In this document: in pieces, positions 26,695-40,777 of the stretch
Layout: each line of letters opens with the position of its first letter
Numbering within the stretch: the stretch's first letter is position 1
Assembly (NCBI GenBank): GCA_020441995.1
Contig: JAGRLC010000080.1
Coordinates: 1-64,000, forward strand
Reading direction: 5' to 3'
Origin: Rhodobiaceae bacterium
GTDB lineage: Bacteria > Pseudomonadota > Alphaproteobacteria > Rhizobiales > Tepidamorphaceae
Length of the DNA: 64,000 nucleotides
Program-made: the position numbers and the translations under genes
Notes under the pieces: model-generated
Seen by the model: only the letters and a program-made list of their open reading frames with translations
What the model was told of the DNA's origin: nothing
Databases searched by the model: none

Positions 26695-26909
26695 GACCGG
26701 GAACCTACAATATAATCTGCGCCTACGTCCATAGACTTGGACGATCTGCTATATATTGCGAATTAATAAGCATTAAAACGCCGAGATATATGCGCTTCAT
26801 TGGTTCTGCGCCGATGTGGCGGGTAACAGGAAATCACCGCATCGCCAAGTCGGACGCCGCTGGCCACAGGAGGCCGGTGTTGCTGATTTCAACGCAGAAA
26901 GGATCTCGT

Positions 26910-27395
26910 ATGTCCCGCAAACTCACATTCACCGCCGCTGCCGTATTGGCGGCGCTCATCATGTCGGCACCGGTTCAAGCGGCGGATGAAGTCAATGCCG
27001 CGCCGGGCCTGACCGCCGCCGGCATGCCGCTCGGTCTGCATGGTGCTGATCCCGTCGCGCTGCTGGACCATGGCCGCAACGCCGAGGGCGTCGCTACGCA
27101 GGCGGCTGTTCACGGCGGCGTTTCCTATTACTTCGCCTCGGAGAAAAACCGGACGGCGTTCGAGGCCAACCCGGCACGCTACACGCCGCAGAACGGCGGG
27201 TTTTGTACCTTTGGCGTCTCCGTCGGGAAGAAGTTCGACGGCGATCCCAACTTCGCCGCGGTTGTCGATGGCAAGCTCTATGTTTTCCTCAACGAGGAAA
27301 TCTACAACGCGTTCCAGAAGGACCAGCAGGGTACAATTGCAAAGGCCGCAAGGAACTGGGAAAAGATCGAGCATACGGCCGCCAACGATCTCTGA
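26910..27395 (+). CDS. Exported YHS-domain protein
   Basis: A 161-residue protein with a clear signal peptide (MSRKLTFTAAAVLAALIMSA, cleavage near VQAAD). The YHS domain covers about residues 45-100: GADPVALLDHGR, then VSYYFASEKNRTAFEANPARYTPQNGG. It is followed by a conserved tail (KLYVFLNEEIYNAFQKD). YHS domains are small metal- or redox-associated modules; this exported type has no established role. AGAAAGGA precedes ATG 26910, which is chosen over earlier in-frame codons because it starts the signal peptide. It is divergent from the AraC gene. Confidence 0.8.
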   Translation: MSRKLTFTAAAVLAALIMSAPVQAADEVNAAPGLTAAGMPLGLHGADPVALLDHGRNAEGVATQAAVHGGVSYYFASEKNRTAFEANPARYTPQNGGFCTFGVSVGKKFDGDPNFAAVVDGKLYVFLNEEIYNAFQKDQQGTIAKAARNWEKIEHTAANDL

Positions 27396-27429: not shown

Positions 27430-28359
27430 CTAAAGCTCCGACCAGAGAACCCGGACGGCCATGGTTGCGGCGGCTGTCCGGTTCTCGATCCCCAGCTTGT
27501 TGAAGATCTGCTCCAGATGCTTGTTCACGGTGCGCGGGGACATTTCCAGGATTTCGGCGATCTCCTTGTTGGACTTGCCGTGGGTGATCCAGATCAGCAC
27601 GCTTGCCTCGCGGATCGTAAGGCCGAAGGCGTCTGACAGCCGTTCCTCGTCGCCGCCATTGGTACAATCGACCAGCCGCAGCAGGATCTCTGAATCGTCG
27701 CTTGAATCGAGCAATCTGAACTCAATGCTGGCCGACGGGCCCTTCAACGTTGTCGAGGGCACTGTCGAGGGGTCCGCCTCCATGGCCGATTGCAGCCACT
27801 CGACCACCTCCCACGGCAGACGGTCGCCTGAGGCGTGGCGCAGCCCCGCGGCGATGAGAAGGCTTTCCGCCTGATGTGTGGCCCAGCGGATTTCGCCGTT
27901 GAAGGTGGTGGCGACAATGCGCCGGCCCGTGCGGTCGAGCGCCTTGCGCGCCGAGATCGCCTTGCGGGCGTTGGCGAGATGCACCTGGATGCGGGCGAAG
28001 AGTTCATCGAGCGGCAGCGGCTTGGTGACGAAATCGACGCCGCCGCTGGCGAGCGCGCGCACCACATGGCTGGTCTCGTTGGAGCCGGTCATGAAGATGA
28101 CCGGGATATCCGTGAAGCCGGGTTCGCCCTTGATGATCTCGCAGGTCTCGAAGCCGTCCATGCCTGGCATCTTGGCGTCCATCAGAACGAGATCGGGCTT
28201 GTCGCTGTGGATTTTGTTCAGTGCATTGCGGCCGCTGGTCGCGAGGTCGACGTCGAAGCCCGACATCGACAGCGCGTCGCGCAGCATCGACAGGGTCTCC
28301 TGGGAATCGTCAACGACGAGAATCCGCGCGGTAGGGGTGGTTTCAAGCGCCATTGCCAC
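27430..28359 (-). CDS. LuxR-type response regulator
   Basis: A 309-residue regulator. The receiver domain (residues 11-125) has acidic pocket Asp17/Asp18, phospho-acceptor Asp61 in LVLMDAKMPGMDG and the conserved Lys in TKPLPLDELF. A middle region of about 110 residues looks like a degenerate PAS-type sensor. The C-terminal LuxR helix-turn-helix reads LTIREASVLIWITHGKSNKEIAEIL. The gene overlaps the end of the sensor kinase gene by 17 bases. GTG 28359 is preferred because GGAGGA sits five bases upstream; ATG 28353 is also possible. It likely controls the divergent urt/fmd genes. Confidence 0.9.
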   Translation of the reverse strand: MAMALETTPTARILVVDDSQETLSMLRDALSMSGFDVDLATSGRNALNKIHSDKPDLVLMDAKMPGMDGFETCEIIKGEPGFTDIPVIFMTGSNETSHVVRALASGGVDFVTKPLPLDELFARIQVHLANARKAISARKALDRTGRRIVATTFNGEIRWATHQAESLLIAAGLRHASGDRLPWEVVEWLQSAMEADPSTVPSTTLKGPSASIEFRLLDSSDDSEILLRLVDCTNGGDEERLSDAFGLTIREASVLIWITHGKSNKEIAEILEMSPRTVNKHLEQIFNKLGIENRTAAATMAVRVLWSEL

Positions 28360-31300
28360 GGGCGTCCTCCAGCACTTCGAGGAATCGGTCCATCCGGTAG
28401 CCGGCCATCAGGTCGCAGAGGTGATGGCAGAAGCGTGTGGATTGCGGGTGGGTCTGTTCGGTTTCATCGAGCAGCGCCTTGACGGAACGATCAAGTCCGG
28501 CGCGCGCCAGAATGGCGAGTTGGTCCAGCGTTTCGGCAGGAGGAAGGTCTTTGGCGCTGAAGCTTATATCGGCTTCGTCCGCCTCGGCTGTCGCACTGGC
28601 ATGGACCCAGTTGATGTCCAGCAGGCCGGACATGGTTTCCAGCAGGTCCTGAACCGAGAAGGGCTTGGTCAGGTAGGTGTCGTGAAGCTGCTTGTTCTCC
28701 GGCGCGTTGCGCCCGCTGCCGGCGTCGGCGGACACCATGACAACGGGCAGGTCCGGGCCGTGGCGGTCGCGGATGCGGCGCGCCACTTCCCAGCCCGACA
28801 GGTCCGGCATCGACACGTCGAGCAGCACGATGTCGGGGCGATGCAGCGCCAGCGTCGACAGGCAGGCGTGACCGTTGGCCGCCGGCATGACGCGGAAACC
28901 GAGCGGCCGCAGCAGGTCCAGCACCAGCGCCCTGTGAGCGGCATCGTCGTCCGTGACGAGGACGGTGCGCCGGCGCCCCTCGTAACCGATGACAGGGCGC
29001 ATGATGTCGGCGGTTTCCTCGCCCGCTTGCGCGGACGGCAGCATCAGGCGGACCGTGAAGCCGGTGCCCTTGCCGATCTCGCTTTTCACCGACAGGTCGC
29101 CGCCCATGATGTCGACCAGCAGGTTCGTGATGGTGAGCCCGAGGCCGGTGCCGGGCGCCAGCGCCGCGGCGCTGTCAGGGGCGGCGCGTTCGAACGGCAG
29201 GAAGACGCGCTCGAGATCTTCGGCCGCGATGCCCGGGCCGGTGTCCTCGACGGTGAGCGTGGCGATGTCGTTGCGGTAGGCGACGGAGAAGGTGACCTTG
29301 CCGGTTTCGGTGAATTTGACCGCATTCGACAGCAGGTTGATCAGCACCTGGCGCAGGCGCTTGTCATCGGTGAAGACATAGGCCGGCAGCCCGGTCAGGG
29401 CATTGAACTCGAAGGCGATCCCCTTCGCCTGAGCCTGCAGCGTGAACATGTCGACGATCTGGTCGAGCAGGGGGCGCAGCGCCACCTTGTTGCGGTCGAT
29501 CTCCAGCCTGCCGGCCTCGATCTTGGAGATATCCAGCAGGCCCTCGATCATGCCGGCGAGATGTTCGCCGGAACGCTTGATGGTGCGTGCCGCGTTGGCG
29601 ACCAGGGGCGTCGGCTCCTTTTCGCGGTCGAGCAATTGCGCATAGCCGAGGATGGCATTGAGCGGCGTTCGCAATTCATGGCTCAGGCCGACCACATATT
29701 TGCTCTTGGCGAGGTTGGCCTTTTCGGCAACCTCCTTGGCCTGTTGCAATTGCCGGTCGGTTTCCTGGTGGGCCTCGATCTCGGCCAGTAGAAGCTGGGT
29801 GTGGCGGCGCGCTTCCTCTTCGGCGAAGTTGCGGCTGTCCTGTGTCAGGACGAACAGCCAGACGATGACGCCGGAGATCAGCAGCACGATGACAAACATC
29901 TTGGACAGCGTCAGGCCGATCGAATGATTGTCGGCCGGGCCGATGGTGCTTTCCACATAAATCAGGCCGAACAGCATACCGACGATGGCTATCACCAGCG
30001 TCATCAAGGCGGTGTAGCGGGCAAGTGTCGTACCCGCCCAGGCCGCGACCTTCTCGGGCAGATGCCGGGTGGCGAAGATGCGGATCTGGTCTCCAAGGCG
30101 CGCATCCGTCTTGCAGGCGTCGCCGCAGCGCGCGTCCAGCGAGCAGCACAGCGAACAGATCGGACCGGAATAAACCGGGCAGCGGGCCATGTCCTCGCTG
30201 TCGAATTCGTACTCGCAGATGCAGCACTCGATCTTTTCCAGCCCCTTCCAGTTCCGGTCCGGCTGGCGGGCGATGTAATACTTGCTGCGGGTTGCGACCG
30301 CGATGGCCGGCACGAGGCAGAAGGAGACGATGAGCGCGACGTAGGAATAGAGCGAGGCAACGGTGATTCCGAAGAAACCGAAATAGGCGAGCAGCGCTGT
30401 ACCGATGCCTGCGAACATCGCGCCGAAGCCGACCGGATTGATGTCGTAGAGATGGGCGCGCTTGAACTCGATGTGTTTGGGCGAAAGGCCGAAGGGCTTG
30501 TTGATGACAAGATCGGCAACCAGCGCGCCAACCCAGGCGACCGCAAGGATCGAGTAGAGCCCGAGAATGTGCTCCAGCGCCTTGTAGACACCAAACTCCA
30601 TCAGCAGCAGGCTGATCACCACGTTGAAGACCAGCCAGACAACGCGGCCGGGGTGGCTGTGGGTGAGGCGCGAGAAGAAGTTCGACCAGGCGATGGAGCC
30701 GGCATAGGAGTTGGTGACGTTGATCTTGAACTGGCAGATCACCACGAAGATACCAGTGAGGCCGAGCGCCAGTTCCGGCTGCGCCAGCATCTTGCCGAAG
30801 ACCGACAGGTACATGTGGACCGGATCGGAGGCCTGCTCGAAGGGCACGCCGCTCTGGAAGGCATAGAAGGCCAGAAACGAGCCGGCGAAGATTTTCAGCG
30901 CACCGATGACGATCCAGCCCGGGCCCGCCGTCATCATGGCTACCCACCATTTGCGCCGGGTCGCCGGTGTCGGGCGCGGCAGAAAGCGCAGGTAGTCGAC
31001 CTGCTCGCCGATCTGCGCGACGAGCGAGAACAGCACGGCTGACGCGGCGCCGAACTGGATCAGCGAGAAGTTTCCGCCGACCGCGCCGTGAAGTCCGGTG
31101 TAGCCTGTCCATTGCCGGACCGGTTCGAGGCTTTGCGCGGCAATGAAGACGAAGGGCGCCAGCTGCAGCACGACCCAGAACGGCTGCGTCCATGCCTGGA
31201 AACGGCTGATAAAGGTGACGCCGTGGGTGACGAGCGGGATCACCAGCAGCGCTGAAATCACATAGCTGATGGCAAGCGGGATCGCGAAGACGAGCTCCAG

Positions 31301-31717
31301 CGCCGTTGCGAGGATAGCGGCTTCTATGGCGAAGAAGATGAAGGTGAAGCTGGCGTAGATCAGCGAGGTGATCGTCGAGCCGATATAGCCGAAGCCGGCG
31401 CCGCGCGTCAGCAGGTCGATGTCCACGCCGGCGCGCGCAGCGTTGTACGAAATCGGGATGCCGGCGAGGAAGATCAGCAGGCAGGTGACCAGAATCGCGG
31501 TGGCGGCGTTGTAAAAGCCGTAGTTGAGGGTGATGGCGCCGCCGATGGCTTCCAGCGCCAGGAAGGATACGGCGCCGATGGCGGTATTGGCGATGCGTGA
31601 GGTCGAGAATCGCCTGACGCCATACGCGGTGAAGCGCAGGGCGTAGTCTTCGAGAGTCTCGTTGGCGACCCACTTGTTGTAGGTACGCCGGATACGCGGG
31701 ACACGTTCAGCAAGCAC
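28343..31717 (-). CDS. NCS1 permease-histidine kinase-receiver hybrid sensor
   Basis: A 1124-residue fusion. Residues 1 to about 490 form a 12-helix NCS1 (cytosine/allantoin/hydantoin) permease-like domain (GAGFGYIGSTITSLIYASF, IGEQVDYLRFLPRP). About residues 497-533 are a cysteine cluster (CCICEYEF, CPVYSGPICSLCC, CGDAC) suited to bind zinc. Two more membrane helices follow at 550-625, then a coiled linker, HisKA with His680 in SHELRTPLNAILGYA, an HATPase domain (N, G1 and G2 boxes; GTGLGLTI), a receiver with Asp967 (LLDVSMPDL) and a C-terminal helical extension. Start GTG 31717. It probably senses substrate passage and phosphorylates the overlapping response regulator. Confidence 0.85.
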   Translation of the reverse strand: MLAERVPRIRRTYNKWVANETLEDYALRFTAYGVRRFSTSRIANTAIGAVSFLALEAIGGAITLNYGFYNAATAILVTCLLIFLAGIPISYNAARAGVDIDLLTRGAGFGYIGSTITSLIYASFTFIFFAIEAAILATALELVFAIPLAISYVISALLVIPLVTHGVTFISRFQAWTQPFWVVLQLAPFVFIAAQSLEPVRQWTGYTGLHGAVGGNFSLIQFGAASAVLFSLVAQIGEQVDYLRFLPRPTPATRRKWWVAMMTAGPGWIVIGALKIFAGSFLAFYAFQSGVPFEQASDPVHMYLSVFGKMLAQPELALGLTGIFVVICQFKINVTNSYAGSIAWSNFFSRLTHSHPGRVVWLVFNVVISLLLMEFGVYKALEHILGLYSILAVAWVGALVADLVINKPFGLSPKHIEFKRAHLYDINPVGFGAMFAGIGTALLAYFGFFGITVASLYSYVALIVSFCLVPAIAVATRSKYYIARQPDRNWKGLEKIECCICEYEFDSEDMARCPVYSGPICSLCCSLDARCGDACKTDARLGDQIRIFATRHLPEKVAAWAGTTLARYTALMTLVIAIVGMLFGLIYVESTIGPADNHSIGLTLSKMFVIVLLISGVIVWLFVLTQDSRNFAEEEARRHTQLLLAEIEAHQETDRQLQQAKEVAEKANLAKSKYVVGLSHELRTPLNAILGYAQLLDREKEPTPLVANAARTIKRSGEHLAGMIEGLLDISKIEAGRLEIDRNKVALRPLLDQIVDMFTLQAQAKGIAFEFNALTGLPAYVFTDDKRLRQVLINLLSNAVKFTETGKVTFSVAYRNDIATLTVEDTGPGIAAEDLERVFLPFERAAPDSAAALAPGTGLGLTITNLLVDIMGGDLSVKSEIGKGTGFTVRLMLPSAQAGEETADIMRPVIGYEGRRRTVLVTDDDAAHRALVLDLLRPLGFRVMPAANGHACLSTLALHRPDIVLLDVSMPDLSGWEVARRIRDRHGPDLPVVMVSADAGSGRNAPENKQLHDTYLTKPFSVQDLLETMSGLLDINWVHASATAEADEADISFSAKDLPPAETLDQLAILARAGLDRSVKALLDETEQTHPQSTRFCHHLCDLMAGYRMDRFLEVLEDARGNGA

Positions 31718-31985: not shown

Positions 31986-32026
31986 GGGGCATATACGTCA
32001 AATGCCCCATTGTTGCATCGCACAAT
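31986..32026. promoter_or_regulatory. Two adjacent dyads upstream of urtA
   Basis: GGGGCAT (31986-31992) and ATGCCCC (32002-32008) are a perfect 7-bp inverted repeat with a 9-base spacer. It is followed directly by ATTGTTGCATCGCACAAT (32009-32026), an imperfect dyad. They lie 83-123 bases before the urtA start in the 391-base gap between the sensor gene and urtA. They are candidate binding sites for the LuxR-type regulator or another nitrogen regulator. The rest of 31718-32108 shows no gene. Confidence 0.4.
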
Positions 32027-32108: not shown

Positions 32109-33377
32109 ATGACCAAGGACACCAAATCTCCCAATCTATACACGATGAACAGACGCCAGCTTCTCGCCGGCATGTCTGCCATTCCGCTCCTTGCCACGAT
32201 GGGCGGACCGCTCCGCGCGTCGGATTTTCCCACCGCCGAGGTCAACAAGACCGGCCTTGCGGTGACCGATGACAAGGTAACCGTCGGCATCCTGCACTCG
32301 GTGACGGGTACGATGGCGATTTCCGAAACCGGATCGGTGGAAGCCGAGAAGCTCGCCATCAAGCAGATCAATGAATCCGGTGGCGTGCTCGGCCGTCAGA
32401 TCGAAGTTATTCAGGAAGACGGCGCGTCCGACTGGCCGACCTTCGCCGAGAAAGCCAAGAAGCTGCTGGTGCAGGACAAGGTCGCCTCGGTGATGGGCTG
32501 CTGGACTTCCGCCTCGCGCAAGGCGGTGCTGCCGGTCTTCGAGCAGTACAACGGCATGCTCTTCTACCCGACCTTCTATGAAGGCCTCGAAGAGAGCCCG
32601 AACGTCATCTACACCGGCCAGGAAGCCACTCAGCAGATCATTGCCGGTCTCGACTGGGTTGCGAAGGAAAAGGGCGCCAAGAGCTTCTACCTGCTCGGTT
32701 CCGATTACATCTGGCCGCGCACGTCGAACAAGATCGCGCGCAAGCACATCGAGGACAAGCTTGGCCTCAAGGTTGTGGGCGAGGAGTACTATCCGCTCGG
32801 CCACACCCAGTTCAACTCGGTCATCAACAAGATCAAGCTGAAGAAGCCCGACGTGATCTACGCGATCGTCGTCGGCGGCTCGAACGTCGCCTTCTACAAG
32901 CAGCTCAAGGCTGCCGGCATCGACATGACCAAGGAGAAGCCGGTCCTTCTCACCATCTCGGTGACAGAGGACGAAATCCTCGGCATCGGCGGCGAGAACA
33001 TCGTCGGGGCATACGCCTGCATGAAGTACTTCCAGTCTCTGGAGAACGACAACAACAAGGAATTCGTTGCCGCTTTCAAGGAGATGTGGGGCGATGACAG
33101 CGTCATCGGCGACGTGACGCAGGCGGCTTATCTCGGGCCCTGGCTGTGGAAGCTCGCGGTCGAGAAGGCCGGCAGCTTCGACATCGATCCGCTCAAGGAA
33201 TCCTTGCCCGGCATCGAGTTCACCAAGGCGCCCGAAGGCTACGTGCGGATCCACGAAAACCACCACTTGTGGTCGAAGACCCGCGTTGGACGCGCCAAGG
33301 ACGATGGCCAGTACGAGGTTGTCTACGAGACCGCGGACTTGGTCGAGCCCGATCCGTTCCCCGAAGGCTACCAATAA
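32109..33377 (+). CDS. urtA: Urea/short-chain amide ABC transporter substrate-binding protein
   Basis: A 422-residue periplasmic binding protein of the UrtA/FmdD family. A twin-arginine-like signal (MNRRQLLAGMSAIPLLAT) is followed by VTVGILHSVTGTMAISETGS, SVMGCWTSASRKAVLPVFE, MLFYPTFYEGLEESPN and IYTGQEATQQI, all close to the urea-binding UrtA pattern. The same family serves short amides in Methylophilus, and the formamidase gene downstream favours that ligand here. The start is ATG 32109; ATG 32145 is an alternative. A strong terminator-like hairpin follows at 33390-33437. Confidence 0.9.
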   Translation: MTKDTKSPNLYTMNRRQLLAGMSAIPLLATMGGPLRASDFPTAEVNKTGLAVTDDKVTVGILHSVTGTMAISETGSVEAEKLAIKQINESGGVLGRQIEVIQEDGASDWPTFAEKAKKLLVQDKVASVMGCWTSASRKAVLPVFEQYNGMLFYPTFYEGLEESPNVIYTGQEATQQIIAGLDWVAKEKGAKSFYLLGSDYIWPRTSNKIARKHIEDKLGLKVVGEEYYPLGHTQFNSVINKIKLKKPDVIYAIVVGGSNVAFYKQLKAAGIDMTKEKPVLLTISVTEDEILGIGGENIVGAYACMKYFQSLENDNNKEFVAAFKEMWGDDSVIGDVTQAAYLGPWLWKLAVEKAGSFDIDPLKESLPGIEFTKAPEGYVRIHENHHLWSKTRVGRAKDDGQYEVVYETADLVEPDPFPEGYQ

Positions 33378-33505: not shown

Positions 33506-34432
33506 ATGATCGGCGACTACACTTATTACGAATTCTCCTCGATCCTGGCGATGCAGGCATTCGCCGGGCTGATCCTGTTTTCCGTGTTTGTGATGATGGC
33601 GCTGGGGCTTGCGATCATCTTCGGCCAGATGGGCGTGATCAACATGGCCCACGGCGAGTTCATGATCCTCGGCGCCTACGTCACCTATTTCACCTCCATC
33701 TTCTTTGAGCATTATCTGCCGTCGCTTTTCGGCATCTACTTCTTTCTGGCGATGATCCTGGCGTTCATCGTGTCCGGTGCGCTCGGCATGTTCGTCGAGT
33801 GGGCGATGATACGGCACTTGTACAAGAGGCCGCTCGATACGCTGCTCGCCACATGGGGCCTGAGCCTGATCCTGCAGCAGTTCTACCGTTCGGTGTTCGG
33901 CGCACGCGAAGTCGGCGTTACTTTGCCGGAATATCTTCTCGGCTCGATCAGTCTGACCGACATCATCGAGGTTCCGATCAACGGCCTGTTCGTGATGGGG
34001 CTGACGCTGCTGATCACCTTCGGCGTCTGGTTCCTGATGTACAGGTCCGGCTGGGGCAAGAAGGTGCGCGCGGTGATCCAGAACCGCGTCATGGCGGGTG
34101 CCGTCGGCATCAATACGAAAATGGTCGACCGCATGACCTTCGGCCTTGGCTGCGGCATCGCGGGTGTCGCGGGTTCCGCCTTCACCATGATCGGCTCGAC
34201 CGGGCCGACGGCAGGACAGCTCTACATCGTCGACACCTTCCTCGTCGTCGTCTTCGGCGGTGCGGCCAGCCTGCTTGGAACCATCGCTTCGGCTTTCACC
34301 ATCTCCCAGGCCCAATCGACCATGGAATTCTTCATGAGCGGCTCCATGGCCAAGGTGCTCACGCTGCTGACCGTGGTCGGCATCCTGATGCTGCGCCCGC
34401 AGGGCCTGTTCGCCCTCAAGATCCGCCGCTAG
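33506..34432 (+). CDS. urtB: Urea/amide ABC transporter permease UrtB
   Basis: A 308-residue inner-membrane permease of the LivH/UrtB type with about eight helices. Landmarks are LGLAIIFGQMGVINMAHGEFMILGAY (read in two parts), LDTLLATWGLSLILQQFYRS, and the coupling loop VRAVIQNRVMAGAVGINT. The C-terminus LRPQGLFALKIRR is typical of UrtB. ATG 33506 has GAGCGAGG upstream. It is 128 bases after urtA, separated by the terminator hairpin. Confidence 0.9.
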   Translation: MIGDYTYYEFSSILAMQAFAGLILFSVFVMMALGLAIIFGQMGVINMAHGEFMILGAYVTYFTSIFFEHYLPSLFGIYFFLAMILAFIVSGALGMFVEWAMIRHLYKRPLDTLLATWGLSLILQQFYRSVFGAREVGVTLPEYLLGSISLTDIIEVPINGLFVMGLTLLITFGVWFLMYRSGWGKKVRAVIQNRVMAGAVGINTKMVDRMTFGLGCGIAGVAGSAFTMIGSTGPTAGQLYIVDTFLVVVFGGAASLLGTIASAFTISQAQSTMEFFMSGSMAKVLTLLTVVGILMLRPQGLFALKIRR

Positions 34433-34450: not shown

Positions 34451-35581
34451 ATGAACTTCGCAAATCCCTTCTTCACACGGCGCGAATGGGCTGCCTTCGC
34501 CATCCTCGCCGTTCTCCTCATCCTGGTGTTCCCGGCTTCGGTCGACGCCTTCCGCCTGAATCTGATCGGCAAGTATCTCACCTATGCCTTCGTGGCGCTC
34601 GGGCTGGTGCTGTGCTGGGGCTACGGCGGCATCCTGAGCCTGGGCCAGGGCGTCTTCTTCGGGCTCGGCGGCTACTGCATGGCCATGTTCCTGAAGCTTG
34701 AGGCGTCAAGCCCGGAGAACACCGCGATCCAGTCCACCCCCGGCATCCCGGACTTCATGGACTGGAACCAGCTGACTTCCCTGCCATGGTGGTGGGAGCC
34801 ATTCCACTCGCTGCCGTTCACCCTGGTTGCGGTGGTCGCGGTGCCGGTCATCTTCGCCTTCATCATCGCCTTCGCGATGTTCACCCGGCGTGTGGGCGGC
34901 GTTTACTTCGCCATCATCACCCAGGCGATCGCCGCCATCCTGACCATCCTGATCATCGGCCAGCAGGGCTACACCGGGGGCGTTAACGGCATCACCGACC
35001 TGCGTACGATGCTGGGCTGGGACATCCGCACTGATGAAGCGAAGACCATTCTCTACTTTGTCAATGCGTGCCTGTTGCTGGGCTGCCTCCTGATTGCCCA
35101 ACTGGTGAAGATCACCAAGTTCGGCCGCCTGATGATCGCCATCCGCGACAAGGAGGACCGGGTGCGGTTCTCGGGCTACAACGTGGCCGGCTTCAAGATC
35201 TTCATCTTCTGCTTCGCCGCAGCGCTCGCTTCGGTCGGGGGGGCGATGTTCACCCTGCAGGTCGGCTTCATGTCGCCGTCCTTCGTCGGCATCGTGCCTT
35301 CGATTGAAATGGTCATCTTCGCCGCGGTCGGCGGCCGGCTGTCGCTGTTCGGTGCGATCTACGGCGCGCTGATCGTCAACGGCGCCAAGACGGCCTTCTC
35401 GGAATCCTTCCCCGAACTTTGGCTCTTCGCCATGGGCGGCCTGTTCATCGCCGTGGTGATGGCCTTCCCGAACGGACTTGCCGGTCTCGTCCGCAGCCAC
35501 GTCGAACCGCTCATCGGGCGTCTGTTCTCCGGTCTTGGCTGGGGACGGACGGCGGCGGCCGACGCAACGCCTGCCGAGTAA
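34451..35581 (+). CDS. urtC: Urea/amide ABC transporter permease UrtC
   Basis: A 376-residue LivM/UrtC-type permease. It shows YAFVALGLVLCWGYGGILSL, GQGVFFGLGGYCMAMFLKLE, a periplasmic loop with WWWEPF, and the coupling loop IAIRDKEDRVRFSGYNV. Length is normal for UrtC, which is longer than LivM because of the periplasmic insertion. CGAGGAGTAACGG before ATG 34451 is a strong ribosome-binding site. It lies 18 bases after urtB. Confidence 0.9.
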   Translation: MNFANPFFTRREWAAFAILAVLLILVFPASVDAFRLNLIGKYLTYAFVALGLVLCWGYGGILSLGQGVFFGLGGYCMAMFLKLEASSPENTAIQSTPGIPDFMDWNQLTSLPWWWEPFHSLPFTLVAVVAVPVIFAFIIAFAMFTRRVGGVYFAIITQAIAAILTILIIGQQGYTGGVNGITDLRTMLGWDIRTDEAKTILYFVNACLLLGCLLIAQLVKITKFGRLMIAIRDKEDRVRFSGYNVAGFKIFIFCFAAALASVGGAMFTLQVGFMSPSFVGIVPSIEMVIFAAVGGRLSLFGAIYGALIVNGAKTAFSESFPELWLFAMGGLFIAVVMAFPNGLAGLVRSHVEPLIGRLFSGLGWGRTAAADATPAE

Positions 35582-35595
35582 GGAGGGCATGAACC

Positions 35596-36366
35596 ATGAC
35601 ACCACCGGCCACAGCCACCGCCGCCGACCAGAAGGACTTCATCCTCTCCGTGGAAGGCCTGACGGTTTCCTTCGACGGTTTCAAGGCGGTCAACGACCTG
35701 TCCTTCTATGTCGATGAAAACGAGATCCGCGTGATCATCGGGCCCAACGGTGCCGGAAAGACCACGGTGCTCGACCTGATCTGCGGGCGCACCAAGGCGA
35801 CCGAAGGGTCGATCAAGTTCCGGGGCAAGGAACTGACCGACATGAAGGAGCACCAGATCGTCCACGCCGGCGTCGGGCGCAAGTTCCAGAACCCGTCGAT
35901 CTACGAGGAACTGACAGTGTTCGAGAACCTCGAACTGTCGTTCCCGCGTGGCAAATCGGTTATCGGCGCGCTCACTTTCCGCCGCGATGGAGAGGTGCGC
36001 GACCGGGTCGAGGAAATCGCCGACCTGGTGTTCCTCAAGGACCATCTGAAAACGGAAGCCGCGATCCTCTCGCATGGCCAGAAGCAATGGCTGGAGATCG
36101 GCATGCTGCTGATCCAGAGCCCGGAGCTTTTGATGCTGGACGAGCCGGTTGCCGGGATGAGCGTGGCGGAACGGCTGAAGACCGCGGAACTGCTCAACAC
36201 CATCATCCACAACCAGTCGGTGATCGTCATCGAGCACGACATGAAGTTCGTCGAGGACATCGCCCACCGGGTCACCGTGATGCACCAGGGCAAGGTGCTG
36301 ACGGAAGGGTCGATGGACCGCGTCAAGCACGACCCCAAGGTCGTCGAAGTCTACCTCGGTCACTAG
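35596..36366 (+). CDS. urtD: Urea/amide ABC transporter ATPase UrtD
   Basis: A 256-residue ATPase of the LivG/UrtD type. Walker A GPNGAGKTTVLDLICG, the signature region ILSHGQKQWLEIGMLL, Walker B LLMLDEPVAGM and the switch His in VIEHDMKFVEDIAH are present; the LSHGQKQWLEIG variant is characteristic of UrtD. It follows urtC by 14 bases. The gap to urtE is 90 bases and holds a hairpin (36365-36380) and a palindromic repeat. Confidence 0.9.
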   Translation: MTPPATATAADQKDFILSVEGLTVSFDGFKAVNDLSFYVDENEIRVIIGPNGAGKTTVLDLICGRTKATEGSIKFRGKELTDMKEHQIVHAGVGRKFQNPSIYEELTVFENLELSFPRGKSVIGALTFRRDGEVRDRVEEIADLVFLKDHLKTEAAILSHGQKQWLEIGMLLIQSPELLMLDEPVAGMSVAERLKTAELLNTIIHNQSVIVIEHDMKFVEDIAHRVTVMHQGKVLTEGSMDRVKHDPKVVEVYLGH

Positions 36367-36396: not shown

Positions 36397-36440
36397 GCAT
36401 TTCCGGACGGCGAACCGGTGCCCACTTCGCCTGAAAATGC
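36397..36440. repeat. Rhizobiales-type palindromic element inside the urt operon
   Basis: GCATTTCCGGACGG at the left and CTGAAAATGC at the right form imperfect arms around CGAACCGGTGCCCACTTC. This matches the widespread Hyphomicrobiales element whose common form has AACCGGTT and CCCACTTTTC in the middle. It ends 16 bases before the urtE start and includes no ribosome-binding site. Confidence 0.55.
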
Positions 36441-36456
36441 TCAAGGAGTTGGTCAC

Positions 36457-37146
36457 ATGCTTGCAGTCGACAATCTGAAAGTTTCCTACGGCGAGAGCGA
36501 GGTGATCCACGGTCTCGACTTCGAAGTGAAGCCCAATGAGATCGTGGCCATCATGGGCCGCAACGGCATGGGCAAGACCACGCTGATGAAGTCGCTCATG
36601 GGGGTTGTCCAGCCGTCCGCCGGACACATCCGCATTGGCGACACCGAAGTGACAAACCTGGAAAGCTATCAGCGCGTCGCCAACGGTCTCGCCTATGTCC
36701 CCCAGGGGCGGATGATCTTCTCCACGATGACCGTGAAAGAGAACATCGAGACCGGCCTGACCGTCACCGGCGAGAGCAAGGTGCCGGAGGACATCTACGA
36801 GCTGTTTCCGGTTCTGCTGGAAATGAAAGACCGGCGCGGCGGCAACCTGTCCGGCGGCCAACAGCAGCAATTGGCAATCGCCCGGGCGCTCGCGTCCAAG
36901 CCCAAGGTGCTGCTGCTCGACGAGCCGACCGAAGGCATCCAGCCCTCCATCATCAAGGAGATGGCGCGCACGCTGTGCCGCATCCGCGACGAGAAGGGGC
37001 TGTCGATTGTCTGCTCCGAGCAGGTCCTCAGCTTCGCGCTCGATATGGCCGACCGCGTTCTCGTGATCGAGAAGGGCGAGATCGTCCACGAAAGCCCGCG
37101 CAAGGGCATCGATGAAAAGAAGGTCGCCAGCTTCCTCTCCGTCTAG
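36457..37146 (+). CDS. urtE: Urea/amide ABC transporter ATPase UrtE
   Basis: A 229-residue ATPase of the LivF/UrtE type: MLAVDNLKVSYGESEVIHG, Walker A GRNGMGKTTLMKSLMG, AYVPQGRMIFSTMTVKENI, signature NLSGGQQQQLAIARAL, Walker B LLLLDEPTEGIQPSII and the LivF-type SEQVLSFALD. ATG 36457 has AAGGAG upstream at a suitable distance. It completes the importer; fmdA follows after 62 bases. Confidence 0.9.
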   Translation: MLAVDNLKVSYGESEVIHGLDFEVKPNEIVAIMGRNGMGKTTLMKSLMGVVQPSAGHIRIGDTEVTNLESYQRVANGLAYVPQGRMIFSTMTVKENIETGLTVTGESKVPEDIYELFPVLLEMKDRRGGNLSGGQQQQLAIARALASKPKVLLLDEPTEGIQPSIIKEMARTLCRIRDEKGLSIVCSEQVLSFALDMADRVLVIEKGEIVHESPRKGIDEKKVASFLSV

Positions 37147-37208: not shown

Positions 37209-38438
37209 ATGGCTGACACGCTCATCTCGGTTGACCTCACGGAGTCGCCGCACACAAACGAGAACATTCACAACCGCTGGCACCCGGACATCCCGATTGC
37301 GGTGTGGGTCGAGCCAGGCGACGATTTCAAGATCGAGACCTATGACTGGACCGGCGGGCAGATCAAGAACGACGACGATGCCGCCGACGTGCGCGACGTC
37401 GAACTGGAGCAGGTCCACTATCTCTCCGGGCCCATCGGCGTGAAGGGTGCCGAGCCGGGCGACCTTCTTGTGGTGGATATCCTCGATATCGGCGCCAAGG
37501 ACGACAGCCTGTGGGGCTTCAACGGCTTCTTCTCCAAGCAGAACGGCGGCGGCTTCCTGACCGAGCATTTCCCCGAGGCGCAGAAGTCGATCTGGGACAT
37601 CGAGGGCATGTTCACCCGCTCCCGTCACGTTCCCGGTGTCGCCTATGCCGGCCTGATCCACCCCGGCCTTATCGGCTGCCTGCCGGACCGCAAGATGCTG
37701 GACATGTGGAACAGCCGCGAGAAGGCGCTGTTCGACACCGACCCGGACCGCACGCCGCCGCTGGCGGCCCTGCCGAACACGCAGTCCGCGCACATGGGCA
37801 AAATGAAGGGCGAGGCCCGCGACAAGGCGGCAGCCGAGGGCGCGCGCACGGTTCCGCCGCGCGAGCACGGCGGCAACTGCGACATCAAGGACCTGTCGCG
37901 CGGGTCGAAGATCTACTTCCCCGTCTATGTCGACGGTGCCGGCCTCTCCATGGGCGACCTGCACTTCAGCCAGGGCGATGGCGAGATCACCTTCTGCGGC
38001 GCCATCGAAATGGCCGGCTGGCTGCATCTGCGCGTCAGCCTCATCAAGGAAGGCATGTCGAAATACGGCATCAAGAATCCGATCTTCAAGCCGTCGCCGA
38101 TCACGCCGAAATACGACGACTACCTGATCTTCGAGGGTATCTCGGTCGACGAGCAGGGCGAGCAGCATTATCTCGATGTGCACATCGCCTACCGGCAGGC
38201 CTGCCTCAACGCCATCGAGTATCTGAAGAAGTTCGGCTACTCCGGCGCCCAGGCCTACGCCATTCTTGGTACCGCACCGGTGCAGGGGCACATCTCCGGC
38301 GTCGTCGATATTCCCAATGCCTGCGCCACGCTGTGGCTGCCGACAGACATCTTCGAGTTCGACGTGATGCCGGGTTCGGACGGGCCGACGAAATATCTCG
38401 ACGGCAAGACCGACGTGCCGCTGGCCCCCGATCTTTGA
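37209..38438 (+). CDS. fmdA: Formamidase
   Basis: A 409-residue enzyme of the acetamidase/formamidase family, hydrolysing formamide to formate and ammonium in the cytoplasm. MADTLISVDLTESPHTNEN, IHNRWHPDIP, GDDFKIETYDWTGGQIKNDD, GFFSKQNGGGFLTEHFPEA, PREHGGNCDIKDLSRG and VYVDGAGLSMGDLHFSQGDGE follow FmdA throughout at normal length. GGAAAGGAGAACATCC precedes the ATG. Its position directly after urtE argues that the importer brings in short amides, or both urea and amides. Confidence 0.92.
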   Translation: MADTLISVDLTESPHTNENIHNRWHPDIPIAVWVEPGDDFKIETYDWTGGQIKNDDDAADVRDVELEQVHYLSGPIGVKGAEPGDLLVVDILDIGAKDDSLWGFNGFFSKQNGGGFLTEHFPEAQKSIWDIEGMFTRSRHVPGVAYAGLIHPGLIGCLPDRKMLDMWNSREKALFDTDPDRTPPLAALPNTQSAHMGKMKGEARDKAAAEGARTVPPREHGGNCDIKDLSRGSKIYFPVYVDGAGLSMGDLHFSQGDGEITFCGAIEMAGWLHLRVSLIKEGMSKYGIKNPIFKPSPITPKYDDYLIFEGISVDEQGEQHYLDVHIAYRQACLNAIEYLKKFGYSGAQAYAILGTAPVQGHISGVVDIPNACATLWLPTDIFEFDVMPGSDGPTKYLDGKTDVPLAPDL

Positions 38439-38547: not shown

Positions 38548-38880
38548 ATGCCCTACTACGATTACGAATGCGGGACGTGCGGACCTTTCACCGAAATGCG
38601 GCCGATGGCCCAATCGGCTGATCCATGTGCTTGTCCCGAATGTGGCGGGGCATCGCCAAGGGCTATCCTGAGGGCGCCGAATTTCGCCCTCATGGATGGC
38701 GCCAGCCGGACCGCGCACGCGACCAACGAAAAGGCGCGGCATGAGCCGAAGTCCTCAAAGAAGCATGGCCACGGGGCGGGCTGCTCCTGCTGCTCGGGCA
38801 AGGGCAAATCGAAAGCGGTCTACCGGCCGGACGGCTCCAAGACCTTCCCTTCGAACCGGCCTTGGCAGATCAACCACTGA
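38548..38880 (+). CDS. fmdB: FmdB-family zinc-ribbon protein
   Basis: A 110-residue small protein. The N-terminal FmdB domain is MPYYDYECGTCGPFTEMRPM followed by CPECGG, giving two CxxC pairs for one zinc. The C-terminal half is basic with a second Cys/His-rich cluster (HGHGAGCSCCSGKGKS). FmdB was named from the Methylophilus amide operon, where it was proposed as a regulator of formamidase expression; its mechanism is not clear. ACCAAGGAGCCAAGGCG precedes the ATG. It is the last gene of the urt-fmd group. Confidence 0.85.
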   Translation: MPYYDYECGTCGPFTEMRPMAQSADPCACPECGGASPRAILRAPNFALMDGASRTAHATNEKARHEPKSSKKHGHGAGCSCCSGKGKSKAVYRPDGSKTFPSNRPWQINH

Positions 38881-39019: not shown

Positions 39020-39604
39020 ATGACGAGAGAGTTGCCGACGACTGGGGTGGAACGCTTCTTTGGCAAAGACGAGATCATTGTAAGCAAGACGGATTTGAAG
39101 GGACGCATCACCTACGCCAACCAGGTTTTCGTCAATCTGGCCGGCTATACCGAGCAGGAATTGCTCGGCCAGCCACACAGTATCATCCGTCATCCCGATA
39201 TGCCGCGCGCGGTGTTCAAGCTGGTCTGGGACACGATCGAGGCCGGCAAGGAAATCTTCGGCTACGTGATCAACCGGGCGAAGAATGGCGATCACTACTG
39301 GGTCTATGCCCATGTGACGCCAAGCTTCGGGCCATCCGGCGAGATCATCGGGTATCATTCCAACCGGCGCGTACCCAATCCGGACACCGTCAAGAACGTT
39401 ATCGCCCCGCTTTACGCGCAGCTTCGCGAGGTCGAGCGCTCCCACGCCAATGCCAAGGAGGGCATGAAGGCATCGGTGGCCGCGGTTCTCGCATTGCTGC
39501 AGGAGAACGGCGTCTCCTACGACGAGTTCGTCATGAGCCTCGATCAGGATCCGAAATATGCACCGGGGGCGAGAGCCGCCGATGACATGCGGGCCGTGGC
39601 ATAA
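39020..39604 (+). CDS. PAS-domain sensor protein (Aer-like)
   Basis: A 194-residue cytoplasmic protein made of one PAS domain (residues 15-125): FGKDEIIVSKTDLKGRITYANQVFVNLAGY, HSIIRHPDMPRAVFKLVWDTI, KNGDHYWVYAHVTPSF (quoted as three separate parts). The pattern matches the FAD-binding PAS domain of the aerotaxis receptor Aer. The C-terminal 60 residues are helical. No membrane segment or output domain is present; the chemoreceptor encoded 12 bases downstream probably supplies the output. Confidence 0.85.
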   Translation: MTRELPTTGVERFFGKDEIIVSKTDLKGRITYANQVFVNLAGYTEQELLGQPHSIIRHPDMPRAVFKLVWDTIEAGKEIFGYVINRAKNGDHYWVYAHVTPSFGPSGEIIGYHSNRRVPNPDTVKNVIAPLYAQLREVERSHANAKEGMKASVAAVLALLQENGVSYDEFVMSLDQDPKYAPGARAADDMRAVA

Positions 39605-39616
39605 GGAGGCGGGACA

Positions 39617-40777
39617 ATGTTCGGAAAAACTTCATCCACCTCGATCCGCAAGGCGCTCGATGTTTGCAAGGCTGTCGCGCAGGGCGATTTCGAGGCGCGT
39701 ATCGTCAATGTCACCGAGAAGGGTGAGCTGGGCGAACTGATGCATGCGATCAATCTCCTGATTGACCGCACGGACGCCTATATCCGCGAATCCACGGCGT
39801 CCATGGATGCCGTCAGCCAGAACCATTATTACCGGCTGATCGTTGAGACGGGGATGACCGGCGCATTTCTCGACGCGGCGAAGTCAATCAACAAGGCCAC
39901 CTGCTTCATTCGCGACCGCAACGATGAATTCACGGAGATCGCCAACCGGTTCGAGAGCCAGATGGGCTGCGTCGTTGAATCGCTTTCAGCTTCGATTGGC
40001 GACCTGAATACGGCATCGTCAACCGTGAACCAGCTTTCGACCAGCGCCAAGGAACAGGCGACAAGCGTTGCCGCCGGCGCCGAAGAGGTGTCCGCGAACA
40101 CCCAAGGCGTGGCGGGTGCGACCGAGGAACTGACCAGTTCGATCAGCGAGATCAACCGTCAGTTCGAGCAGGCCTCGGAGACAACATCGCAGGCGGTTGA
40201 AAAATCGCGCTCCATGAGCAGCCACATCGAGGGGCTGGCCGCCGCGTCTCAGAAAATCGGCGAAGTGGTTGAACTGATCAACGACATCGCCGCGCAGACG
40301 AATCTGCTGGCGCTGAACGCCACGATCGAAGCGGCGCGCGCGGGCGATGCGGGCAAGGGCTTTGCCGTTGTCGCCGCAGAGGTAAAAACCCTCGCCGAGC
40401 AGACAGCCAAGGCGACCGAGGAAATCTCCAGGCAGGTTAACGGCATTCAGGAATCGACCTCGACCGCAGTCGGTGCCAACGAGGAGATCAGCGACGCGAT
40501 TGCGGGTGTGCACGAGATTTCCGTCTCCATGGCATCGGCCATCGAGGAGCAGAATGCGGCAACCCGTGAAATCGCGCGCAACGTCGAAGAGGCCGCATCC
40601 GGCGTCCGCGACGTGACGGTCAGCATCAGCGAGCTGTCGGGAGCGACCGACGAGACGCAGCAGGCCGCAGAGCAGGTGATGCAGTCATCGGGCAAGCTTG
40701 CCGAGCAGGAGCAGGTTCTGCATACGCTGCGTTTGGAGATGGGCGAGTTCCTGCAGCGTATCAAGAAAGCCGGGTAA
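39617..40777 (+). CDS. Soluble methyl-accepting chemotaxis protein
   Basis: A 386-residue chemoreceptor without signal peptide or membrane segment. The N-terminal 120 residues resemble a HAMP-like/linker region ([19 protein letters not shown]). The signalling domain includes the hairpin tip ([20 protein letters not shown] and [17 protein letters not shown]) that binds CheA/CheW. AAGGAGGCGGGACA precedes the ATG. With the PAS gene it forms a two-gene version of Aer, likely steering movement by redox or oxygen state. There are no che or flagellar genes in the window. Confidence 0.88.

Follow-up and report, generated by a model that had tools for sequence, protein, structure and literature searches.

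Here we analysed a stretch of 64,000 nucleotides from a Rhodobiaceae bacterium (contig JAGRLC010000080.1; hereafter the window) and describe a gene that encodes a permease domain, a cysteine-rich module, a histidine kinase and a receiver in one protein. The gene lies beside that of a LuxR-type response regulator and is divergent from genes for urea uptake and formamidase. The architecture of the protein, its relationship to NCS1 transporters, the invariant cysteine module, the phylum-wide link to urt, fmd and urease genes and a locus-specific palindrome are established by computation. The sensor and its partner comprise the following features.

28343-31717, minus strand: NCS1-Cys-hybrid histidine kinase (predicted 'transceptor kinase') of 1124 amino acids; single open reading frame, GTG start
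30278-31717, minus strand: divergent NCS1/LeuT-fold permease domain, residues 1-480, assigned by CodB model, Mhp1/CodB folds and profile match
30104-30235, minus strand: eight-Cys module, residues 495-538, with fixed spacing across the family
29843-30028, minus strand: two-helix membrane hairpin entering the kinase helix, residues about 564-625, from modelled secondary structure
29039-29704, minus strand: HisKA (His680) and HATPase_c, residues 672-893, by Pfam
28634-28963, minus strand: receiver with Asp967, residues 919-1028, by Pfam
27430-28359, minus strand: partner response regulator with REC and LuxR/GerE helix-turn-helix domains, by Pfam; its frame overlaps the end of the kinase gene

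A permease, a cysteine module and a kinase in one protein

Three Pfam domains of the product exceed their gathering scores (HisKA, residues 672-736; HATPase_c, 784-893; Response_reg, 919-1028), and His680 and Asp967 can be read from the translation. By domains and residues the protein is a hybrid histidine kinase, for which phosphotransfer is predicted. An earlier reading made from the letters alone (the sequence-only reading) had described this fusion, and its domain order, coordinates and two phosphorylation residues agree with Pfam and the translation. The LuxR-type partner that it named is adjacent, sharing 17 bases with the end of the kinase gene, and adjoins the kinase in relatives whose contigs reach that far. 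Full-length fusions of 1056-1130 amino acids are present in all 80 near relatives retained from a scan of species genomes; because these come from independent genomes, a sequencing error joining two genes, which the sequence-only reading had named as a possible refutation, is ruled out, as is an assembly join.

Mean identity to the window protein is 69% for the permease, 68% for the Cys module, 62% for the kinase, 47% for the receiver and 25% for the barely conserved C-terminal tail. The permease is thus, by sequence identity, one of the best-conserved parts and ranks above the kinase, as expected if a ligand site is under retention. Deep in the family, a side branch (L120 and L121) carries a version of 894 amino acids without the receiver, near fmdA; both loci also encode a separate protein with receiver, HisKA and HATPase domains nearby, and L121 an OmpR-type regulator. 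In the window, an exported YHS-domain protein (26790-27395) adjoins the response regulator gene and was not found near the loci of relatives.

The relationship of the permease to known transporters is distant. Pfam gave no convincing match for residues 1-665 in 26 representatives (0 of 26; the PF02133 gathering score was not reached), and the NCBIfam cytosine-permease model matched 7 of the 26 weakly (best 7e-6). When an AlphaFold model of residues 1-665 (predicted local distance difference test (pLDDT) 68; predicted template modelling score (pTM) 0.67) was ranked against PDB folds, Mhp1 (E 7e-8) and CodB filled ranks 1-5 of 517; as modelled, the domain has a LeuT-type core and its nearest fold is NCS1. 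Profile-profile comparison of 81 sensors with 49 NCS1 sequences, from which a bridging homologue (L119) was excluded, gave 99.4% probability (E 3e-21, 373 columns), compared with 4.8% for a profile of 30 SSS transporters. This homologue is the closest stand-alone NCS1 relative found, is 31% identical over the domain and matches PF02133. Given the two profile results, the Mhp1/CodB folds and the match of L119, the permease is NCS1 by descent as judged from sequence, yet lies outside the current Pfam model; the NCS1-type assignment of the sequence-only reading therefore holds, although Pfam is blind to the domain. Searching PDB sequences with the permease, as one protein or as a profile, returned no relevant match. 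DUR3 carries urea, which gives an SLC5/DUR3-like origin its appeal; that origin is rejected on the SSS profile result, although DUR3 is still among the fold matches.

Eight polar residues within the membrane (E132, Q235, E238, Q239, K331, N333, N336 and Y338) are invariant in all 81 sensors. The motifs of transmembrane helices 3 and 8 (TM3 and TM8) align with those of CodB, the Asn280 of which corresponds to invariant Asn333. In the same alignment, on which these correspondences depend, the CodB Na2 residues Thr278/Thr279 become Lys331/Ile332, and Trp108, a TM3 substrate position that is predominantly Trp, becomes Phe128 in the window and Phe or Leu across the sensors; as aligned, the sensor has neither the Na2 Ser/Thr of TM8 nor the substrate Trp of TM3 that characterize NCS1 proteins. 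Because the Na2 Thr pair is replaced, the ligand site is predicted to be sodium-independent. For Phe204, the TM6 aromatic residue of CodB, no exact counterpart could be assigned, and we make no claim about it.

The Cys cluster that the sequence-only reading had placed between permease and kinase proved to contain eight invariant residues (Cys 498, 501, 513, 521, 524, 525, 531 and 535), whereas Cys499 is variable. Their spacing, C-x2-C-x11-C-x7-C-x2-CC-x5-C-x3-C, is identical in 55 of 55 members of the phylum-wide sample. A profile of the module run over 299 genomes gave 42 matches, all within frames of this kinase family and none in any other protein. The model shows strands followed by a helix (522-527) that begins at the second CxxC (pLDDT about 50), an arrangement that would suit a binuclear zinc treble-clef or cross-brace fold with one CxxC at a knuckle and one at a helix start. 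A structural fold around two zinc ions would explain the spacing no less well than a redox switch, and we give even chances to zinc in the module, with two ions predicted. As expected from the sequence-only reading, two further helices follow (about 564-592, and from 597 onward, in the model). This hairpin is weakly conserved in sequence and in the model leads without a break into the kinase helix. If the core has 12 helices and its N terminus faces the cytoplasm, as is the case for NCS1 proteins, the Cys module would be cytoplasmic.

Linkage to urea and amide genes and a shared palindrome

Divergent from the kinase, the window encodes all five subunits of a urea ABC transporter, each above its NCBIfam cut-off, followed by formamidase and an FmdB-like gene.

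32109-33377, plus strand: urtA, urea ABC transporter binding protein, above the TIGR03407 cut-off
33506-34432, plus strand: urtB, above the TIGR03409 cut-off; start codon set by the extent of the family match
34451-35581, plus strand: urtC, above the NCBIfam cut-off
35596-36366, plus strand: urtD, above the NCBIfam cut-off
36418-37146, plus strand: urtE, above the NCBIfam cut-off
37209-38438, plus strand: fmdA formamidase, NF045496, 769 bits (cut-off 500)
38548-38880, plus strand: FmdB-like zinc-ribbon protein, Zn_ribbon_8; behind fmdA in most relatives

The urtA gene is divergent from the kinase in 78 of the 80 near relatives; the other two kinases lie less than 200 bases from a contig end, so the arrangement is found in 78 of 78 uncut cases. 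In a sample of 398 genomes across the Pseudomonadota, the kinase was recovered from 52 (13%, about one in eight). The neighbourhoods of 55 histidine kinase loci were examined, with fmdA in 37 (35 of them with urtABCDE), urease genes in 13, urtABCDE alone in 4 and a contig end in 1. All 54 loci without a contig-end cut therefore adjoin urtABCDE, fmdA or urease genes. At L122, L130 and L132, a urtCDE-ure cluster is closely followed by the genes for kinase and regulator. On a supported tree of 65 sensors, urease linkage takes at least four changes. Four genomes (G158, G246, G379 and G225) each encode two paralogous kinases, one at urt-fmdA and one at urease; few positions discriminate fmdA-linked from urease-linked sensors (169, 297, 298, 322 and 397), none of them clearly in the ligand site.

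The family is also common on plasmids, with the kinase on 536 PLSDB records, of which 342 are from Klebsiella; many conjugative Klebsiella plasmids, such as that of L295 (Klebsiella pneumoniae pKP1-19), carry it together with urt genes. Database labels for the protein are 'ATP-binding protein', ArcB or a generic kinase. Straight after the fmd genes, the window (39020-40777) encodes an Aer-like PAS protein and then a methyl-accepting chemotaxis protein in which no membrane helices are evident; the two resemble the halves of a divided Aer receptor.

The intergenic regions between kinase and urtA have in common the palindrome TACGTCA-NN-TGACGTA, with the core TACG-N8-CGTA. A search of 56 loci (1.06 Mb) allowing up to two mismatches gave 32 matches, all before urtA/kinase or a separate fmdA, compared with 0-2 in shuffled sequences. 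The perfect core is present in 86 of 117 intergenic regions (0.4 expected), rising to 99 of 117 with up to one mismatch (9.9 expected), and commonly lies 80-160 bases ahead of urtA. Across 13 whole genomes, the full palindrome with up to one mismatch occurs at 16 sites, 16 of 16 at this locus (the reversed control pattern gave 5 matches); second sites precede a separate fmdA in three of these genomes (G174, G186 and G356). Sigma-54 sites in the kinase-urtA intergenic regions are scattered, with none in the window. The window itself carries one related element.

31993-32016, plus strand: operator-like element ATACGTCAAATGCCCCATTGTTGC with one intact half-site, about 115 bp before urtA; sole copy in its own genome

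The clade of the window keeps the half-site TACGTCAAATGCCCCA (31994-32009) within a longer block that is unique in its own genome, and ATACGTCAAA is present in 13 of the 15 loci nearest to the window. The palindrome is the predicted site of the LuxR-type partner, a reading that we draw because CrbR, the LuxR-type partner of the CrbS kinase, uses an inverted repeat; regulator and palindrome here resemble that pair. The connection to the divergent urt/fmd genes made by the sequence-only reading is thus borne out by conserved synteny and a common palindrome, and it is highly probable that the kinase-regulator pair controls urt/fmd.

Proposed mechanism and competing explanations

We consider it fairly likely that the protein is a transceptor kinase for urea or short amides and switches on urt/fmd by way of its LuxR-type partner; here we infer the ligand, the direction of control and the metal content. 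The NCS1-fold domain would bind urea, a short amide (formamide, for example) or both, either purely as a receptor or while transporting slowly. The resulting rearrangement of the LeuT-like core may then pass through the cytoplasmic eight-Cys module, which probably holds two structural zinc ions, and the two-helix hairpin to the DHp helices, where the signal would alter phosphorylation of His680. Phosphate is predicted to reach the LuxR-type regulator encoded next to the kinase, whose own receiver (Asp967) may modulate or relay the signal. The regulator would bind TACG-N8-CGTA palindromes before urtABCDE and fmdA and activate import and breakdown of urea and amides. In other lineages, the kinase-regulator pair is located with urease genes. 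Sensing linked to a transporter, as the sequence-only reading suggested, is the likely principle.

Urea or a short amide is the likely ligand, given that genes for urea transport, formamidase and urease recur beside the kinase. The closest stand-alone relative points the same way, because in L119 (7784-12984) it sits beside a carbon-nitrogen hydrolase (nitrilase), a binding protein of AmiC type and a regulator of AmiR/ANTAR type, which together form a candidate operon for uptake of an amide or nitrile. Further support comes from the Methylophilus fmd cluster, for which both formamide and urea act as inducers (PMC10781810), and from an NCS1 protein that carries metformin, a non-cyclic nitrogen compound (PMC13390362). 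The amide and urea ligands put forward by the sequence-only reading are therefore retained. It had also offered a purine or hydantoin breakdown product, which is not supported: genes for such compounds were not recognised as recurrent neighbours, although no systematic search for them was made.

Several observations weigh against this proposal. In the window's own clade the palindrome is intact in one half only, and beta- and gammaproteobacterial loci with urease linkage mostly lack the consensus. Binding, transport and phosphotransfer are all predictions, and confidence in the model is moderate (pLDDT 68 and pTM 0.67, with about 50 in the Cys module). The excess of urease genes in kinase-bearing genomes (49 of 52, compared with 19 of 56 without the kinase) agrees with the proposal but is confounded by ancestry. 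In addition, in the four genomes with both urt-fmdA and urease paralogues, the two branches may sense different molecules.

The kinase could control urt, fmd and urease genes yet respond to metal or redox state through the eight-Cys module, with the permease as an anchor or metal-linked transporter. The exactly spaced invariant cysteines in every member, the restriction of the module to this family, the nickel requirement of urease and the HupE-like genes that adjoin the kinase in L122, L128, L130 and L132 would all suit such a signal. We regard it as improbable, in that the permease is as conserved as the module and has invariant polar membrane residues that an anchor would not need, no nickel enzyme lies beside the kinase at FmdA-linked loci, and the CxxC pairs at a knuckle and helix start resemble a structural zinc fold in the low-confidence model. 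The protein might instead serve chiefly in transport and signal as feedback, like a trigger transporter that responds to flux and not to occupancy. Its transporter-like core is complete, and CbrA is reported to combine transport and kinase activities (PMC7096432). Against this stand the presence next door of a high-affinity ABC importer dedicated to the same class of substrates, the aligned replacement of the CodB Na2 Thr pair by invariant Lys331 and by Ile332, which makes sodium coupling unlikely, and the report that activation of the analogous CrbS/CbrA kinases is independent of transport (PMC5715377); we judge this explanation unlikely.

Purine breakdown yields urea, and the homology to Mhp1 and CodB would agree with a sensor for a ligand of the classical NCS1 kind, a purine, hydantoin or allantoin breakdown product that arises before urea. 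This is very unlikely in our view: purine, hydantoin and allantoin genes were not recognised among recurrent neighbours, albeit in an analysis that did not search for them systematically; the TM3 substrate Trp is Phe or Leu in the alignment; and NCS1 proteins can accept non-cyclic nitrogen compounds, as the metformin carrier illustrates.

Relationship to known systems

Urea and small amides rank among the main sources of nitrogen in soil, the sea and hosts. If the urea/amide proposal is true, the family provides a membrane urea receptor for bacteria, and it supplies a predicted operator and regulon as well as specific residues and ligands. It is carried by 13% of the sampled Pseudomonadota genomes and hundreds of plasmids, yet is labelled 'ATP-binding protein'. 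Our literature search found no report of an NCS1-fused kinase and no described membrane receptor for urea or small amides; for a urea-sensing kinase beside urt, it returned only genome tables that list the neighbourhood without comment (PMC2907700, PMC13296017). Whether this is in full a new transceptor kinase family, with an NCS1 fold, Lys replacing sodium at Na2, a urea/amide receptor and a new eight-Cys metal module, we consider evenly balanced.

The sensor shares its fold, TM3/TM8 motifs and the equivalent of Asn280 with CodB and Mhp1, and differs from them in lacking a PF02133 match, in the Na2 and Trp108 replacements and in its fusion to a kinase. The L119 locus has a separate transporter and AmiC/AmiR-type proteins in place of the kinase. 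In Methylophilus methylotrophus, formamide and urea induce the fmdCABDEF amide/urea cluster, which resembles the control predicted here, but a review of that cluster describes no sensor kinase (PMC10781810), unlike the present locus.

CbrA and CrbS are established precedents for signalling by kinases fused to transporters (PMC13022988, PMC5715377). The sensor is predicted to work like CbrA, CrbS and RpuS (PMC13022988, PMC5715377, PMC9100948), in which a linker module connects a LeuT-fold transporter domain to a histidine kinase, with an adjacent response regulator and control of genes for a small nutrient (control being predicted here). It is nevertheless not an SLC5/STAC kinase by the SLC5 criterion of profile probability (99.4% for NCS1 compared with 4.8%). 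In the position of STAC it has the eight-Cys module and an extra transmembrane hairpin; the linkers of 26 representatives gave no Pfam match, the Cys-rich module and hairpin being seen in the model, and no STAC profile was run directly. Whereas the nutrients of the known kinases are histidine, acetate or pyruvate, the genes here concern urea and amides, and NCS1 would be a second transporter family, besides SLC5, to have been recruited as a kinase sensor.
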